Source of the DNA: a virus
DNA length: 38,793 nucleotides
Direction: 5' to 3' (one strand)
IMG/VR virus record: IMGVR_UViG_3300035670_000589
Span: 1-38,793 of that record
A model generated the notes under the pieces. That model was not told the DNA's origin. It saw nothing but the letters and a program-made list of their open reading frames with translations, and did no database searches. Shown here in pieces: positions 25,867 to 37,362 of the stretch. The first letter of the stretch is position 1, and each line of letters begins with the position of its first letter. The translations under genes were made by a program, and so were the position numbers.

Positions 25867-26202
25867 TTACGACAAAATTTTGTCAATTTCCTCTTTTGCA
25901 TGATCCGCACCGTAGCAAATAAGAACTGTATTTCCCAGCATTTGCAAATAGTTAATCCAGTCTCGTTGCTCTGGTGAAAGCTTGCCACCCTTGACCCGCT
26001 TCATCTCGATCCAGAGGTTTTTGGCTGGCACAAACAGGTCTGGCACACCTCGCGAAACGCCTTCGGCTTTTAATTTTGCTGCGGTAGCCCTCGATCTCAT
26101 ACCACCATTCGGGATGGCGAAGATGCGGACACCCTTGTATTTTTGCCTAAACCAGCGAACAACTTCGCGCTGCTCGAAATGCTCTGTTGGGATGTTTTCC
26201 AT
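25867..26202 (-). CDS. VRR-NUC domain nuclease, 111 aa
   Basis: The product matches the stand-alone phage VRR-NUC family: QREVVRWFRQKYKGVRIFAI, then PNGGMRSRATAAKLKAEGVS, then GVPDLFVPAKNLWIEMKRVK with D55, E66 and K68 as the PD-(D/E)xK catalytic set, and GKLSPEQRDWINYLQMLG. Family members cut branched or structured DNA. It overlaps the PP-loop gene by 1 bp in the leftward recombination operon and likely resolves or trims recombination intermediates. Confidence 0.9.
   Translation of the reverse strand: MENIPTEHFEQREVVRWFRQKYKGVRIFAIPNGGMRSRATAAKLKAEGVSRGVPDLFVPAKNLWIEMKRVKGGKLSPEQRDWINYLQMLGNTVLICYGADHAKEEIDKILS
25871..25884. repeat. 14-bp perfect palindrome GACAAAATTTTGTC
   Basis: It lies at the very 3' end of the VRR-NUC gene, about 45 bp from the consensus DnaA box. 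It could be a protein-binding site or a weak RNA hairpin. No T-tract follows on the minus strand. Confidence 0.4.
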
Positions 26203-27071
26203 TATACTTCACCGCACCATAAGCCACATTCGGCATCCATTTCTGGGTCATCATCAAAACATCCAGCAAACAAATCACCCTGATTGCGAACTGCCTCTAT
26301 TATGCTTTTATAGCTATAATCTTTATTAAAATTTCTTAAAGATTTCTTTGAGTTAATTTGAGTAGCATAGTCTTCAAGATCAGCCCACCACTGCAATGTA
26401 TTTGGCTTAGTTCTTTCAATCTCCATCAATTTCGCCCTGCCTTTAAGAAAACAGGCATCGCAATTGCCTTCAAAGGGCAATAGATTGAGATCAAAGTTTT
26501 GCTCCTTCCACCAATTCATAATATCGCGCTGCGTAATTTTTGCATCATATAGCGGAAAAACTGAAACCCACGGGTCTTTACCTTTTTCGTTAGATGCCAT
26601 GCCCCGCTCTACCCTATGGCGCTCATCCACGCGAAGGCCGACAACATTAGTCCATTTTTTATACCCAAGAGATTTCATAAAAAACTTCATAGGTTCAATT
26701 TTAAGTTGCGTTGTGCAGAAACGCATCACCCCGCATGGAAGATATTTCTTATCCTCAACAAGGGATATGAATGGTTCACCATTTCTGCTTGCACTATTAT
26801 AACCAACCTCTGAAAAGCGATCAGACCAGTCCTTTGCTTTGCGATCAGCCATCTCAAGCCAACGAATGCGAACGCCCCATCTAGCCTCACATTCATGGAC
26901 AAAGCGCAAAGTCTCTTCGCGTTCTTTGCCAGTGTTGGCAAAAGTTACATGCACATCATCTGGTAGTTTGCCACCATGCGCCTCAACAATTTTGTAAAGC
27001 ATGTAGCCGCTAGTGCGCCCACCACTAAAAGAAACAAGCGCGGGGCCTGTAATATGGAATGGATTTTTCAT
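26202..27071 (-). CDS. PP-loop ATPase of the PAPS reductase/DndC-like family
   Basis: ATG 27071 is preferred (TAATG overlap with the upstream stop) over an ATG eight codons earlier. The 289-aa protein has a PP-loop SFSGGRTSG at about 14-22, TFANTGKEREETLRFV, a CGVMRFCTTQLKIEPM segment and a GNCDACFLKGR cysteine pair, as in phosphoadenosine-phosphosulfate reductase-like proteins. These enzymes adenylate or transfer sulfur; relatives act in DNA phosphorothioation (DndC) and tRNA thiolation. In this phage no other dnd gene is visible, so the substrate is unknown. The Cys set suggests an Fe-S cluster or zinc. Confidence 0.82.
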   Translation of the reverse strand: MKNPFHITGPALVSFSGGRTSGYMLYKIVEAHGGKLPDDVHVTFANTGKEREETLRFVHECEARWGVRIRWLEMADRKAKDWSDRFSEVGYNSASRNGEPFISLVEDKKYLPCGVMRFCTTQLKIEPMKFFMKSLGYKKWTNVVGLRVDERHRVERGMASNEKGKDPWVSVFPLYDAKITQRDIMNWWKEQNFDLNLLPFEGNCDACFLKGRAKLMEIERTKPNTLQWWADLEDYATQINSKKSLRNFNKDYSYKSIIEAVRNQGDLFAGCFDDDPEMDAECGLWCGEV

Positions 27072-27265
27072 TAAAACGGCACCTCTTGACTCCACTTATC
27101 ACACTGCCCCTTGGTGTTAACAAATTCCACCGGCACTGTCATTTTGAAAATAAAGCACTGTCCTGTGCCAGAGTAGTGATCACAATTGTGGCAAAATTGT
27201 GGCGGCCCTGCGGTGATCCACTCTTCCCATTGCACCAGTTCAGGCGGCTTCGGTGGCCTCGACAT
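27071..27265 (-). CDS. Four-cysteine small protein, 64 aa
   Basis: It overlaps the helicase end by 26 bp and its TAA overlaps the PP-loop gene start. The product has C25-x2-C28-x8-C37-x17-C55 (QFCHNCDHYSGTGQCFIF), a small zinc or Fe-S binding fold. Being translationally linked to the PP-loop protein, it could act with it, for example as a sulfur or electron carrier, but this is inference. A similar Cys pattern occurs at 35583-35795. Confidence 0.7.
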   Translation of the reverse strand: MSRPPKPPELVQWEEWITAGPPQFCHNCDHYSGTGQCFIFKMTVPVEFVNTKGQCDKWSQEVPF

Positions 27266-28850
27266 CCCAAATCCTTTCTATCACTCGGTAAAATTTACCG
27301 TCTCGCTTGTACTTTATTTCAACTGGAATTTCCCCGTCGGTCATCCCCTTGGCAACAGACTCCAGATCAGGTTTCCCTGCCAGCGTAACGCCGCTAAGAC
27401 CTGCGAGTTCACCCAGTGACCTTAGCGCCTTGGTGCCTGCATAGCCATCGTGCAACACCGGCAAATACTCTGTGACCGAAGGATCGGATAGTGATCCGTA
27501 ATAAGTTACAGCCAGCATATCCTTACCACTGGTGCGGCTGGTATGCTTGCGCCACCACCATTTGGTAACTTCCATTGTGTTGACCGCCATGCCCATGATG
27601 TCGTCTTGGTGCAGCTTCAGCTTTTTTGCTTCTGGCTCAGGAAACGCAAAACCACAGGCATCACAGGTTCTGGCACTGATCGGCACAAGTTCATTGCAAT
27701 TGTCGCAGACTTTTACCGGCGCCTCACTCTGTCCCTCACCTTTCTTCGTGACAGACCTTGGATTAATTGCAGTGATCGGCCCGTGCTGGGCTACAACTCC
27801 AGCAAAGTCCAGTACCAAGCAGTGATCGGTATGACTTTTGACACGCATCCCGCGCCCAGCCATCTGGACGTAGAGGCTAGTACTCATCGTCGGCCTGAGC
27901 ATGGCGATGAGATCGATGTCAGGATAATCAAAGCCAGTGGTCAGCACGTTGGCGTTTGTCAGCGCCCGCAGCCTGCCAGCCTTGAAATCAGCAATAATTC
28001 GTTCGCGCTCTGCTTTTGGTGTCGACCCCACAACAAAATTTGCCGGTATCCCGTTTGCATTAAGCATATCCGAAATTGCCTCTGCGTGAGCAACACCTGA
28101 GCAAAAGAATAACCAAGCTTTGCGATCACCAGCCAGCTTTATGACTTCGCGCACAACCGCCTCATTGTTCTCAAGCGTGTTGACGGCTGCGGCTAACTCC
28201 CCCTCGACATACTCGCCGCCACGCTTGTGAACACCACTCAAGTCAAAGTGTGCCTCGGTGATCTTGCTGCGAAGAGTTGACAGGAAGCCCTTGTAAATAA
28301 GTTCCTCGATCAGCACCGGCTCCAGCAGTTCGTGGAACAGCCCGTCGCCCTCATTGATGCGGCCATGACCAAGCCTGTATGGCGTTGCAGTCAAGCCCAC
28401 CACCCGAAGGTTTGGGTTGATCTGTTTCAGGTCATTAATCAGCTTTCTATAGCCACCCTCATCTTTGTGGCTAACCAGATGACATTCATCAATTATGATC
28501 AGGTCAATATATCCAAGAAGCGTCGCCTTTGTCCGCACAGACTGGATGCCAGCAAAAGTGATTGGCTCCCCAAGCTGGCGCTTGCCAATACTGGCGGAAT
28601 AGATGCCCATTGGCGCATTTGGCCAATGCTCACGCATTTTAGCGGCGTTCTGTTCGATCAGTTCCTTGACATGCGTCAGCATCAAGATGCGCGTATTGGG
28701 CCAATTCTCCATCGCATCCTTACACAGTGCTGCGACAATATGGCTCTTACCAGACCCAGTCGGCAAGACAAGACACGGGTTCCCTTTCGGGTTGGCGCCA
28801 AACCAATCATACAACTGGCCTATGGCGCGTTTTTGATAGTCACGGAGCAT
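27240..28850 (-). CDS. SF2 DEAD/DEAH-type helicase with zinc ribbon
   Basis: ATG 28850 (MLRDYQKRAIGQLYDWF) is the natural family start; the upstream extension is shadow. The 536-aa protein shows Walker A PTGSGKS at 30-36, DECH at 121-124, TATPYR at 154-159, the helicase C-domain VLTTGFDYPDID near 302-313 and QMAGRGMR at 329-336. A zinc ribbon C382-x2-C385 / C396-x2-C399 follows, then a C-terminal OB-like extension. This is the usual phage replication/recombination DEAD-box helicase, unwinding forks or branched DNA. Confidence 0.93.
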   Translation of the reverse strand: MLRDYQKRAIGQLYDWFGANPKGNPCLVLPTGSGKSHIVAALCKDAMENWPNTRILMLTHVKELIEQNAAKMREHWPNAPMGIYSASIGKRQLGEPITFAGIQSVRTKATLLGYIDLIIIDECHLVSHKDEGGYRKLINDLKQINPNLRVVGLTATPYRLGHGRINEGDGLFHELLEPVLIEELIYKGFLSTLRSKITEAHFDLSGVHKRGGEYVEGELAAAVNTLENNEAVVREVIKLAGDRKAWLFFCSGVAHAEAISDMLNANGIPANFVVGSTPKAERERIIADFKAGRLRALTNANVLTTGFDYPDIDLIAMLRPTMSTSLYVQMAGRGMRVKSHTDHCLVLDFAGVVAQHGPITAINPRSVTKKGEGQSEAPVKVCDNCNELVPISARTCDACGFAFPEPEAKKLKLHQDDIMGMAVNTMEVTKWWWRKHTSRTSGKDMLAVTYYGSLSDPSVTEYLPVLHDGYAGTKALRSLGELAGLSGVTLAGKPDLESVAKGMTDGEIPVEIKYKRDGKFYRVIERIWDVEATEAA

Positions 28851-29283
28851 TATATTTCTCAACAGGTTTAAACCAATTAATGGGTAGGTGAACGACAGGC
28901 TCGATGTCGCCGTCGCGACCACGGGCCGCATTCCCGCCGACGGTGTATTCAAGCTTCGCACCCAGCGCACCATACACACTGACGAAATGTAGATCGGCAT
29001 CGATCCACTTTACAAATAGCAATGAGTTAAGCCCGCTGTCACCGGAAAGCTGTACAAGCTTTGACCACTTATCAGCAGAGAGAATTAGTGTCGGAAAGGC
29101 GTCCTTTTTTACGCTGCGATATTTGAACTCGCCCCAGCAGGCCATGCCCCTCTTATTGGAAAGCGCCCAATCAACCCTGTATTTTATTTCACCAAGCTTG
29201 GTGCAAAAAAGCCCCCAGCGTTCATGGATAATTTGAGCAGCTTCCTTTTCTTTCTCCAGATCGGAGTCGCTTTCGTATCTCAT
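28840..29283 (-). CDS. Possible PD-(D/E)xK nuclease, 147 aa
   Basis: ATG 29283 overlaps the upstream stop (ATGA). Residues 34-56 read KYRVDWALSNKRGMACWGEF followed by KYR, giving D38-x13-E52-x-K54. This is the D...ExK spacing of restriction-endonuclease-fold nucleases, with helices before (EAAQIIHERWGLF) and strands after. The rest is beta-rich (LNSLLFVKWIDADLHFVSVY). The assignment rests on this motif alone. The position between a Cas4/RecB-like exonuclease and the helicase supports a nucleic-acid role. Confidence 0.55.
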   Translation of the reverse strand: MRYESDSDLEKEKEAAQIIHERWGLFCTKLGEIKYRVDWALSNKRGMACWGEFKYRSVKKDAFPTLILSADKWSKLVQLSGDSGLNSLLFVKWIDADLHFVSVYGALGAKLEYTVGGNAARGRDGDIEPVVHLPINWFKPVEKYNAP

Positions 29284-32386: not shown

Positions 32387-32415
32387 CACACCAGTCGGAC
32401 AATCCGTTCGGTGTG
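32387..32415. promoter_or_regulatory. 29-bp nested dyad, candidate early operator
   Basis: CACACC-agt-CGGA-caa-TCCG-ttc-GGTGTG is symmetric around base 32401, with 10 bp on each side able to pair and equal 3-base spacers. It overlaps the expected start point of the leftward promoter and lies upstream of the Cro/CI-like gene at 32487. A dimeric or tetrameric repressor could bind here; as RNA it would fold in the Sak4 leader. Confidence 0.6.
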
Positions 32416-32423
32416 TGAAAAGT

Positions 32424-32454
32424 TCTTTACGTCATGAAATCCTCATTGTAAAGC
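32424..32454. promoter_or_regulatory. Near-symmetric bidirectional promoter candidate
   Basis: Leftward (minus strand): TTTACA (32447-32452), 17-bp spacer, TAAAGA (32424-32429). Rightward (plus strand): TTTACG (32426-32431), 17-bp spacer, TAAAGC (32449-32454). The two share the inverted repeat CTTTAC...GTAAAG, so each -35 overlaps the other's -10. The -10 boxes are weak (3 of 6), so activation, perhaps by the alpha-CTD/sigma4-like protein, may be needed. Confidence 0.5.
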
Positions 32455-32486
32455 GTCTATGCAAATTAATTTTGAAAGGAGAAAAT

Positions 32487-32660
32487 ATGCTTACCCTGCA
32501 AGAGATAATGGACGGCCTTCGGGATCGTCGCATAAATGTGATTTCTGAGGCGACTGGAGTTTCCCGCTCCACGATCAGCCGAATTCGCCAAGGCAAGAAT
32601 GCCAACCCAACCTTCGGCGTGATGAAGGCTTTGTCTGACTATCTGACTGGGGGCCAATAA
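32487..32660 (+). CDS. Cro/CI-like helix-turn-helix regulator, 57 aa
   Basis: GAAAGGAGAAAAT before ATG 32487 is an excellent ribosome site; the upstream in-frame ATG 32415 lies in the promoter/operator and is rejected. The product is essentially one HTH: RDRRINVISEATGVSRSTIS, then RIRQGKNANPTFGVMKALSDYL, the lambda-repressor-like five-helix core with NPT after the recognition helix. It is first in the rightward early operon and next to the dyad at 32387-32415, the natural operator. Its stop overlaps the next start by 1 bp. Confidence 0.85.
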   Translation: MLTLQEIMDGLRDRRINVISEATGVSRSTISRIRQGKNANPTFGVMKALSDYLTGGQ

Positions 32661-33004
32661 TGTTTCCGAAATGGTATACCCCACCGCCACGGCGGAAGCC
32701 TAAGGGTGCGCCTGCCAAAATGGTCATCAATACCGTGAGCAAGATCACTGGTATATCAGTAGATGATATCATGTCGAGGCGGCGTCACAAACCTATCGCC
32801 AAGGCTCGGCAAATCGCATATTATATGATGAAGCGTCACTGCCAGCATTTGTCTTATGATCGCATCGCCTACAGCATCAACCGCACCGATCACACAACGA
32901 TCATGCATGGCTGCGCGGTGATCGAGGATTTGATGAACAAAGACAATGTTGTACGTCGGCAAGTTGATTCCATTAGTAAGCTTATAGAGGGGGCTAAAAA
33001 GTGA
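32660..33004 (+). CDS. Stand-alone DnaA domain IV-like replication protein, 114 aa
   Basis: After a Pro/Arg-rich leader (about 1-20), residues 25-95 follow the C-terminal DNA-binding domain of DnaA: VSKITGISVDDIMSRRRHKP, IAKARQIAYYMMKRHCQHLS, YDRIAYSINRTDHTTIMHGC, with the DHTTxxH(G)C signature that contacts the DnaA box. The ATPase domain is missing. Such a protein may bind phage or host DnaA-type sites and mark the origin, or block host DnaA. It overlaps the primase/helicase start by 4 bp and is likely made with it. Confidence 0.88.
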   Translation: MFPKWYTPPPRRKPKGAPAKMVINTVSKITGISVDDIMSRRRHKPIAKARQIAYYMMKRHCQHLSYDRIAYSINRTDHTTIMHGCAVIEDLMNKDNVVRRQVDSISKLIEGAKK

Positions 33005-35019
33005 GCGGGAACCTAACAAACATCTTCGGTGGTGCATGGTCACCGCCCACACCCGCCAAACCCGAATCACCTGAGAAACAATTAATAGATGCTATGCTGG
33101 CCGCTGGGCTTACACCGCCGAAGGAAATTTACTTCGATGGCAAGTTGCATCGCTTTAATTCCAATACCAAAGGAAAGGCTGGCCACGATAAGCCGGGCTG
33201 GTATGTGGTTTTCAGTGACGGCGTACCGGCTGGCCGCTTCGGTTGCTGGCGGGCCGGTGTGGAAGTCACCTTCTGCGCCGACATAGGCCGCCAGCTTACC
33301 GACAGCGAAAAGATGGTGAACGCTCGGCGGCTGGCAGAGGCTCGAACAATCCGCGATGCTGATTTGAAGCGCACCCGCGAGATGGCGTCCGACACCGTCG
33401 AGAAAATCTGGTCAAACGGAATGCTGGCAACGCCTGAACATCCATATCTTGCTCGTAAAGGGATAGGCCTGCACGGCGCCAGAATGACGGGAGACGGACG
33501 GCTCATGCTTCCGCTCTACACGCCTGACGGCCAATTGGCTTCGCTCCAGTACATAGATAATGACGGCGGCAAGCTTTATCACAGCGGCGGCCAGACTGGC
33601 GGATGCTTCTGGATGCTCGGAACCCTCGATGAGGCTGGTGTCATTTACATCGCAGAGGGCTTTGCGACGGCGGCCACAATCAATGAGGTGACCAACCGTC
33701 CCTGCATCGTTGCCTATTCAGCATCAAACCTTGTGCCGGTCACAGGCACGATCCGCGAGAAGCACGGCGCGGCACAAGAGATTGTGATTGTGGCTGACAA
33801 CGATGCCAGTGGCGTTGGGCTTAAATATGCCGACCAAGCCTCGGCCAAATACGGCGCACGGGTGGTAATGCCGCCCAGCCTAGGGGATGCCAATGACTTT
33901 GTGGCTGAAGGTGGCGACTTGAAGCTGCTGCTCCAGCCGGATGTCAGTGACTGGCTGATCCCCGCAGATGAGTTCTCGACGAGCCCCAAGCCAATCCGCT
34001 GGCTGGTCAAGCACTGGCTGCAAGAAGAGGCTCTCATAATGGTTCATGGCCCATCAGGCGGCGGCAAGACCTTTGCAGCCCTCGATTGGTGCCTGCACAT
34101 GGCGGCTGGCCTACCAGATTGGCACGGCCACAAGGTAAAGCAGGGGCCGGTGGTCTATCTGGCCGGTGAAGGCCATCACGGCCTCAGAAGTCGTATTGCC
34201 GCATGGAAGCAGCATCACAATGTGCAGAACCTCGATATGTGGCTCTCCAAGGCTGGCTGCGACCTCAACACCCCAGAAGGGTATTTAAGGGTAGTCGAGG
34301 CAATCAGGGCGCTGCCCAAGAAACCGTCGGCCATCACGGTGGACACCCTGCACCGCTTCCTTGCTGGCGATGAGAACAGCGCACAGGACGCAAAGACGAT
34401 GATCGATGCCTGCGCCAACCTGATGCGCGAGTTCCAGTGCAGTGTCGTTCTGGTGCATCACACTGGCGTATCTGAAGAGGCCCAGCATCGAGCGCGTGGA
34501 TCGTCTGCGTGGAAGGGTGCGCTCGAAATCGAGATCAGCATCATCCCAAGGAAGGGCGATAAGCCTATGCAGATTGTCCAGCGCAAGTCCAAGGATGCCG
34601 AAGAGGCACAGCCACTCTGGGTCAAGTTGGAAATCGTTCCGATCAACGGCTGGCTCGATGAGGACGGTGAACAGGTCAAGAGTGCTGTGCTGGCCCTTGA
34701 TGAGGCTCCGCCTGAGCGGAAGAAGGAATCTTCCCTAGATCGGCACAGGCGCGTCTGGGAAGGCGCTTGGGAGTTGAAGGGAAGGGAAGTCAAGGATGGC
34801 AAGCCGTACCTGACCAAATCCGCCCTTAAAGATAAGCTGCAAGCTGATGGGGTGAAGGAGCGGACAATCCGCAATATGGTCAATCCGTCCTACAATGAAA
34901 AGCTGATCGGGGCGCTTATTGATGCTCGTATGATTGAGCCTTTTGAGCATGGGTGGATATGGATCGAAGAGGTCAATGGGAGCGTCATGATGCAAAAGAA
35001 AAATGAGGATAAAAGTTGA
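33001..35019 (+). CDS. Primase-helicase: Toprim domain plus RepA-like AAA ATPase
   Basis: GTG 33001 overlaps the preceding stop, with GAGGGGG upstream. The 672-aa protein has an N-terminal DUF3987/CHC2-like region (LHRFNSNTKGKAGHDKPGWY), and a Toprim core VIYIAEGFATAATI (E219), VIVADNDASG (D266, D268) and LGDANDF (D297). The hexameric helicase ATPase has HGPSGGGKT at about 349-357, VVYLAGEGHHGLRSR and ITVDTLHRFLAGDEN, followed by VVLVHHTG. A winged-helix-like C-terminus ends it. It should prime and unwind at the phage origin. Its stop codon is the first GGGTCA-type iteron. Confidence 0.92.
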   Translation: MSGNLTNIFGGAWSPPTPAKPESPEKQLIDAMLAAGLTPPKEIYFDGKLHRFNSNTKGKAGHDKPGWYVVFSDGVPAGRFGCWRAGVEVTFCADIGRQLTDSEKMVNARRLAEARTIRDADLKRTREMASDTVEKIWSNGMLATPEHPYLARKGIGLHGARMTGDGRLMLPLYTPDGQLASLQYIDNDGGKLYHSGGQTGGCFWMLGTLDEAGVIYIAEGFATAATINEVTNRPCIVAYSASNLVPVTGTIREKHGAAQEIVIVADNDASGVGLKYADQASAKYGARVVMPPSLGDANDFVAEGGDLKLLLQPDVSDWLIPADEFSTSPKPIRWLVKHWLQEEALIMVHGPSGGGKTFAALDWCLHMAAGLPDWHGHKVKQGPVVYLAGEGHHGLRSRIAAWKQHHNVQNLDMWLSKAGCDLNTPEGYLRVVEAIRALPKKPSAITVDTLHRFLAGDENSAQDAKTMIDACANLMREFQCSVVLVHHTGVSEEAQHRARGSSAWKGALEIEISIIPRKGDKPMQIVQRKSKDAEEAQPLWVKLEIVPINGWLDEDGEQVKSAVLALDEAPPERKKESSLDRHRRVWEGAWELKGREVKDGKPYLTKSALKDKLQADGVKERTIRNMVNPSYNEKLIGALIDARMIEPFEHGWIWIEEVNGSVMMQKKNEDKS

Positions 35020-35154
35020 CCCTAATTGACCCTAGGGTCAAAAAAAGGGTCAGGGTCAAAAAGGGGCAAAAGCATGATTTTTTGATCCCGAAATGACCCT
35101 GACACCCTACCCCCTTTTAAGGCAGGGGTAGGGTCAAAGGGTCAGGGTCAAAAA
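35017..35154. promoter_or_regulatory. Iteron array, candidate replication origin
   Basis: Nine copies of the hexamer GGGTCA/TGACCC lie in 134 bp (starts 35017, 35027, 35035, 35047, 35053, 35094, 35131, 35139, 35145). They include a perfect 14-bp palindrome TGACCCTAGGGTCA (35027-35040) and an exact 19-bp direct repeat AAAGGGTCAGGGTCAAAAA at 35044-35062 and 35136-35154. A 10-bp stem-loop lies between them (35104-35134), with an AT-rich stretch at 35068-35094. Its place right after the primase/helicase gene suits an origin. Confidence 0.7.
35104..35134. repeat. 10-bp stem-loop inside the iteron array
   Basis: ACCCTACCCC (35104-35113) pairs perfectly with GGGGTAGGGT (35125-35134) across an 11-base loop. 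No T tract follows, so it is not a standard terminator; a cruciform or single-strand initiation structure at the origin is possible. Confidence 0.6.
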
Positions 35155-35229: not shown

Positions 35230-35544
35230 ATGGGACGAACATATTCAGGAAATCACGAGGGCGAGGAGACGGGCTGGATCAGGCTTGGTGAAGTCGGCAA
35301 GTTCGAGAATGTTAAGTGGGTGCTTTATCGTAAACCTCAGCCAAGCGGTGGTGAGTGGGATTATATTAAACTTGTCGCCAACGGCAGAGTTGTGAATAAA
35401 GCAAATTACTGGCTATCATGGAATGGTGCGAGATTTGCTATGGGTGGTGATTTTTCAAAACTGGCCCAGCACCGAAACGAACTTTGCGACATGGTTGTTT
35501 TGTTTATGGAAGAGTTTGAAGATGAGCAGGCCCCGTATTGCTAA
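35230..35544 (+). CDS. Hypothetical protein, 104 aa
   Basis: ATG 35230 follows AGGAGTAAGGAA; an in-frame ATG at 35176 is rejected as it is far from any ribosome site. The product (HEGEETGWIRLGEVGKFENV, KWVLYRKPQPSGGEWDYIKL, NYWLSWNGARFAMGGDFSKL) is beta-rich then helical. It has no catalytic motif that I can see and no family I recognise. It is the first gene after the candidate origin. A DnaA-box-like TGTGAATAA (35391-35399) lies inside it. Confidence 0.65.
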   Translation: MGRTYSGNHEGEETGWIRLGEVGKFENVKWVLYRKPQPSGGEWDYIKLVANGRVVNKANYWLSWNGARFAMGGDFSKLAQHRNELCDMVVLFMEEFEDEQAPYC

Positions 35545-37119: not shown

Positions 37120-37221
37120 TTTTTGCTCCATAAATCGTATGAGGGGGTGGTGGCCGGCTCGGCTGCCGCCCATTTTTTTGCTCCATAAATCGTATGGGGG
37201 GTCATAAATCGTATGGGGGGT
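37120..37221. repeat. 22-bp direct repeat and 19-bp tandem repeat
   Basis: The 22-mer at 37120-37141 recurs exactly at 37175-37196 (core CTCCATAAATCGTATG). CATAAATCGTATGGGGGGT occurs in tandem at 37184-37202 and 37203-37221. The copies contain or border the GGGTCA hexamer (37199-37204, 37218-37223) also found in the iteron array at 35.0 kb. They look like iterons or operators. Confidence 0.75.
37145..37179 (+). terminator. Intrinsic terminator after the rightward early operon
   Basis: GGGTGGTGGCC (37145-37155) pairs with GGCTGCCGCCC (37161-37171) with three wobble pairs, a 5-base loop and then ATTTTTTT. It lies 44 bases after the secreted-protein gene and points rightward. Confidence 0.75.
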
Positions 37222-37362
37222 CAATTTTTTGACCACTTGCGACACAAAATTACAATTTTGAGCAATAAAATTACAATGTGAAATTATATTTCACCGTTCG
37301 CGGAAACCGCGCAATTTTATTACAATTTTCAGCAACTTTGTATTTTATCGCCGATTTTATGG

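Follow-up and report, generated by a model that had tools for sequence, protein, structure and literature searches.

RSF1010 has an iteron origin, P4 alpha has an SF3 helicase, and the Rep helicases of SaPIs and PICIs are D5/SF3-like; iteron sites on plasmids can also serve autoregulation, copy control or partition. In the SaPI/PICI Rep-ori systems, the origin is described as lying directly 3′ of the replication gene and as being recognised by the C-terminal domain of the helicase (PMC7581432, citing Ubeda 2007; PMC6092414). PICIs share the SaPI origin organisation and have been called the only bacterial replicons so organised (PMC6092414). The alpha protein of satellite phage P4 is described as combining a TOPRIM primase, a helicase and a winged-helix origin-binding domain on one polypeptide, with an iteron origin (PMC4234260, citing Yeo 2002 and Ziegelin & Lanka 1995), and RSF1010 splits initiation over three polypeptides, RepA, RepB′ and RepC (PMC4234260). 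In pRN1, a small repressor gene accompanies ORF904, a primase-helicase with a C-terminal winged helix, and a stem-loop origin lies downstream of the gene (PMC4234260). RepA of the Vibrio cholerae PLE is an initiator of the RepA_N type, for which neither a helicase nor a primase is predicted (PMC7145576); only its DNA-binding domain varies along with the origin, the remainder being conserved, and the origins are modular (PMC8263062).

The DNA analysed here, referred to as the window, is the whole 38,793-nt stretch of IMG/VR virus record IMGVR_UViG_3300035670_000589, in which terminase, portal and tail genes are present. It contains an origin-like array of GGGTCA words directly behind a gene whose product carries a TOPRIM primase, a helicase and a C-terminal winged helix on one chain, as judged by Pfam domains and models. 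Upstream of the primase gene lie a DnaA domain IV-like gene, a small HTH gene and a divergent Sak4-like gene. The features are as follows.

32415–32660, + strand: small HTH regulator, encoded ahead of the replication gene and with homologues in roughly half of the relatives
32660–33004, + strand: DnaA domain IV-like protein (Bac_DnaA_C), accessory, rare among relatives
33001–35019, + strand: primase-helicase, 672 aa; Toprim_3 at residues 215–305, AAA_25 at residues 321–491, C-terminal winged helix at about 575–672
34723–35016, + strand: C-terminal winged-helix domain, residues 575–672, proposed iteron binder (model pLDDT 84; covariation with the word)
34852–34896, + strand: recognition-helix region, residues 618–632 (VKERTIRNMVNPSYN), with proposed specificity positions R621, R624, N625 and N628
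35017–35150, no strand assigned: origin-like iteron array of nine GGGTCA words (word positions and density)
35017−, 35027−, 35035+, 35047+, 35053+, 35094−, 35131+, 35139+, 35145+: starts and strands of the words (exact GGGTCA/TGACCC)
35017–35058, no strand assigned: left cluster of five words, the first overlapping the primase stop codon
35059–35093, no strand assigned: AT-rich spacer between the word clusters, with the GGGGCAA element of relatives
35094–35150, no strand assigned: right word cluster and hairpin (stem search, folding, hairpins in relatives)
35104–35113 with 35125–35134: inner stem, 10 bp
35094–35103 with 35141–35150: outer stem, formed by the GGGTCA words themselves (folding)
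35044–35062 and 35136–35154, + strand: two copies of a 19-bp exact direct repeat, AAAGGGTCAGGGTCAAAAA

The locus resembles the SaPI/PICI systems in several respects: the array, which we infer to be an origin, stands immediately 3′ of the initiator gene, two iteron clusters flank an AT-rich region in the window, and the covariation described below supports iteron binding by the C-terminal domain. However, those elements are described as satellites with a D5/SF3-like Rep (PMC7581432), whereas here a phage carries a RecA-fold motor of the AAA_25 type, and its array has a hairpin and short words of 6–7 bp. As in P4 alpha, primase, helicase and C-terminal winged helix are fused in the phage protein, but the motor is AAA_25 instead of SF3. 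The motor belongs to the same helicase family as that of RSF1010, which has an iteron origin; RSF1010 RepA (PDB 1g8y, E 7e-12) was its sole sequence relative among solved structures. The RSF1010 helicase stands alone, however, while the phage fuses motor, primase and proposed iteron reader. The small regulator gene, the C-terminal winged helix and the downstream stem-loop recall pRN1 ORF904, which differs in having an archaeo-eukaryotic primase, an SF3 helicase and a large stem-loop without iterons. Covariation of a DNA-binding domain with the origin is shared with PLE RepA, in which there are few types, compared with many words and a residue-level rule in the phage family. Because its motor is different, the phage family is filed under none of these known systems; the best reading of the sequences is a phage origin that would be bound by the phage's own primase-helicase in the mode of P4 alpha and SaPI Rep-ori, with an RSF1010 RepA-type motor. 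We found no description of this array family in a literature search that covered few subscription journals.

An earlier note on this DNA had described nine dense hexamers as a probable origin. Exact-word counting confirms the density: the 134-bp array holds nine words against 0.087 expected from the rate outside it (the note had given about 0.07), with a Poisson P(≥9) of 7e-16. The array is the densest 6-mer cluster of the window, and only its own overlap AGGGTC reaches a comparable density. Outside the array, 25 copies of GGGTCA were counted, a mild excess over the 13.75 expected for the whole window, and no second cluster of the word is present elsewhere in the window. The 19-bp direct repeat and the 10-bp stem-loop of the earlier note were both recovered by coordinates, as was its AT-rich segment, at 35059–35093 between the word clusters. 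The note had further let the end of the primase gene run into the first iteron; the stop codon TGA (35017–35019) is indeed the first half of that word, but the last sense codon lies outside it. Folding of the 149-nt array strand gave a z of −6.8 against shuffles. Some 2 kb away, the window holds two exact tandem copies of a 19-bp sequence (CATAAATCGTATGGGGGGT) at 37184–37223, and a similar sequence near 37125 makes a third copy; two of the repeats in 37125–37223 run into GGGTCA, beside an AT-rich stretch. These repeats were considered as a second origin-like site and rejected, as only two words occur there and the iteron array is of another kind.

Relatives of the primase-helicase were gathered from viral and genome contigs and phage records, giving several hundred loci, 246 of them distinct after duplicate removal. 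In about 200 relatives with the TOPRIM and AAA_25 combination, an array follows straight after the primase stop codon, and 179 full-length relatives have at least five copies of one 6-mer directly 3′ of the gene. The word itself differs between phages and includes GGGTCA, GGTAAC, GGGGGC, GGGACA, GGACAA, GGGGCC, GGGAAC, GGTACT, GGTACC, GGTTCA and others, and at least 21 words stay unconnected even when related ones are chained by lenient clustering. The word that belongs to a given phage occurs at 27.2 per kb in the array versus 0.38 per kb outside it, a difference of about 70-fold, and just 2 of 196 loci had another cluster with at least three copies of it. A strong hairpin is present in 64% of the relatives' arrays (97 distinct hairpins), compared with 0% of shuffles and 2% of coding sequence. 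The element GGGGCAA stands ahead of the hairpin in 49% of relatives versus 1% in shuffles, and in those relatives about 44 bp separate the two. The two clusters flanking an AT-rich region are an arrangement of the window that varies among relatives.

These comparisons support the earlier proposal of an origin: the array recurs in about 200 relatives, is found at that place only, usually carries a hairpin and is accompanied by host DnaA boxes. Perfect DnaA boxes (TTATCCACA) occur at 1.73 per kb in the 400 bp at the arrays versus 0.065 per kb elsewhere in the same loci, a 27-fold enrichment that supports origin function; 52 loci, including a few scored as array-less, have such a box at the array. 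No perfect box lies near the window's own array, the nearest TTATTCACA being at 35391. GC skew, which had been suggested as a mark of the origin, proved uninformative, with a minimum near 32 kb that tracks gene direction. On this comparative evidence, the array is very probably where the phage starts copying its DNA. Plasmid iterons are capable of other roles, and the primase-helicase could bind the array for autoregulation, copy control or partition while replication starts elsewhere. We regard this as unlikely, given the DnaA-box enrichment, the recurrent hairpin, the SaPI/PICI-like position of the array at the initiator gene, and the single cluster. Scans of the array region for a terminator or promoter stayed at chance level, and no Rfam match pointed to a known RNA.

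To the question of which protein would read the words, the earlier note had offered the DnaA-IV protein or the primase. Both the DnaA-IV-like protein and the small HTH regulator look DNA-binding and are encoded just upstream, and either could in principle be the reader. Of the 192 relatives with enough upstream sequence, 161 have arrays, but a profile search, more sensitive than tblastn, found DnaA-IV in 12 and the HTH gene in 109; we consider reading of the words by another phage protein very improbable. With its gene in just 12 of 192 relatives, DnaA-IV was rejected as the word reader and, judged by this distribution, is dispensable for the array system; of the two proteins named in the note, it is the primase-helicase that stands, as its C-terminal winged helix covaries with the word. 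As separate observations, the phage gene at 32660–33004 encodes only domain IV of DnaA and could compete for host DnaA boxes, and a DnaA-IV gene also occurs in some relatives with other words, e.g. L012 and L025.

The C-terminal domain was predicted by AlphaFold2 as a helix-strand-helix-helix-wing fold with a mean pLDDT of 84, in which helix 3 comprises residues 620–627. Its best structural matches in the PDB were mostly winged helices, at a Z of about 7, which is below the firm level. By sequence, it matched no solved structure up to E 1; Foldseek returned nothing below E 0.001, and the P4 alpha domain was absent among the matches listed.

We compared same-word with different-word pairs of the 179 full-length proteins, matched on identity of the core (residues 1–570); such pairs are non-independent, and the comparison is strongly weighted towards big word groups, GGGTCA among them. 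At a core identity of 0.90–0.97, the C-terminal domains were 0.88 identical in same-word versus 0.58 in different-word pairs, and at 0.70–0.75 the values were 0.61 versus 0.43. The primase and AAA domains of the 179 proteins showed no such difference at matched core. Below a core identity of 0.65, same-word pairs show little or no extra C-terminal-domain similarity, suggesting that some words shared by remote lineages are convergent or due to chance. Per residue, the covariation signal peaks at 616–633.

The domain adjoins the array, and the 3′ end of the gene could be swapped together with it as one recombination block, the domain not reading the words at all. Fourfold-site identity at core 0.85–0.97 is moderately higher in same-word pairs, both at residues 575–608 (0.64 versus 0.49) and in the helix (0.68 versus 0.60), and part of the covariation thus reflects joint inheritance. 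However, helix amino-acid identity is 0.89 in same-word versus 0.34 in different-word pairs, and the signal is low in the tail, which is closer to the array. Sister proteins L066 (GGTACC) and L070 (GGGACA), with 92% core identity, differ chiefly in the helix, and L232 (GGTAAC) differs from L290 (GGGAAC) by the helix change Q625V and a few others elsewhere in the domain. Among remote relatives only (core <70%), the nearest helix has the same word in 48% of cases versus a base rate of 8%, and the residue-to-base rule described below holds across lineages. Joint inheritance exists in part, as read from these alignments, yet it leaves the helix signal unexplained, and we give hitch-hiking as the whole explanation only a slight chance. 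Instead, the words appear to be read by the C-terminal winged helix of the primase-helicase. Between phages, the helix changes along with the word, whereas the layout and the remainder of the protein are kept, so that each phage would have a private origin specificity.

The rule concerns the R621/N625 helix family, with words of the form nnXCCCT, in which residue 628 sets X. It was spotted by eye in a first set, in which N goes with A (47/47), D/E/S with C (27/27) and K with G (2/2), 76/76 in total, and was then written down before further loci were fetched. All 50 covered cases among the later-fetched loci agree, giving 126 covered sequences overall without exception; 45 of these 50 carry glutamate and are essentially one clade, with few new helices or words beyond it. 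The combination R621 and N625 goes with CCCT in 127/127 sequences; counted as independent pairs on a tree of residues 1–560, the association is about 15:0 (median p 6e-5), and that of N628 with A is 5:0 (p 0.06). Outside this family, where K628 is present, Q625 goes with GGT words (33/33) and V625 with GG(G)AAC (11/11). Residue 624 is a weaker guide than 628: lysine occurs there with G, A or T, and in the later-fetched set R goes with G in 3/3, E with C in 4/4 and V with T in 0/1. Asn-A, Lys-G and Asp/Glu-C are common protein–DNA contacts, which the pairs at residue 628 match. Since the word changes in step with the putative reading part of the protein, it is partly predictable from the protein. 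A compact, largely modular residue-to-base code at 621, 624, 625 and 628, with words diversifying under selection for private origins, is a tentative proposal, for which our doubt slightly outweighs our confidence. If true, origin specificity would be readable from the protein sequence alone, and private origins would be selected against rivals, satellites or origin-directed nucleases.

Taken together, we consider it highly likely that the array is a replication origin whose words are bound by the C-terminal winged helix of the upstream primase-helicase, which would open the DNA and start synthesis. GGGTCA, read as TGACCCT, would be bound by this domain of the protein encoded immediately upstream, and several copies would occupy the word clusters that flank the AT-rich spacer, including the words at the hairpin. 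The bound protein would open the DNA at the array, the RecA-type, RSF1010 RepA-like helicase ring would then be loaded, and the TOPRIM domain would prime synthesis. In many relatives, host DnaA would probably assist via the adjacent DnaA boxes. Sequence alone would thereby point to the origin, and probably to the initiator domain, in a large phage family that is mostly uncultured, and self-contained replicons of the SaPI/P4 style would extend to phages whose motor is of the RSF1010 type. Changes of the word are many and come with matching changes of the helix, which amounts to a natural experiment on the co-change of domain and site, and origin exclusivity between co-infecting phages becomes directly testable.

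Some relatives depart from this layout. About 25 (clade L392–L428) keep the primase gene but lack the array, and their proposed reading helix is altered or shortened; a conserved small ORF (MNRLTQLKAKLRAAQAELA...) replaces the array downstream of the gene. As a natural control, the changed helix counts in favour of the proposed origin reading, and the retention of the gene without the array counts against it. In L069, L072 and L073, T replaces R at 621, and the array, made of AGGTGA words (10 copies each in L069 and L072) and accompanied by a DnaA box, is displaced downstream by about 185 bp. The N-terminal part of these three proteins is like that of L003 and the motor region aligns poorly (L069), and the genes are apparent chimeras on this alignment. 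Elsewhere in the window, a PAPS-reductase-domain gene (26202–27095) lies beside a helicase gene (27240–29000), and the small gene next to it (25867–26202) resembles a VRR-type nuclease by eye.
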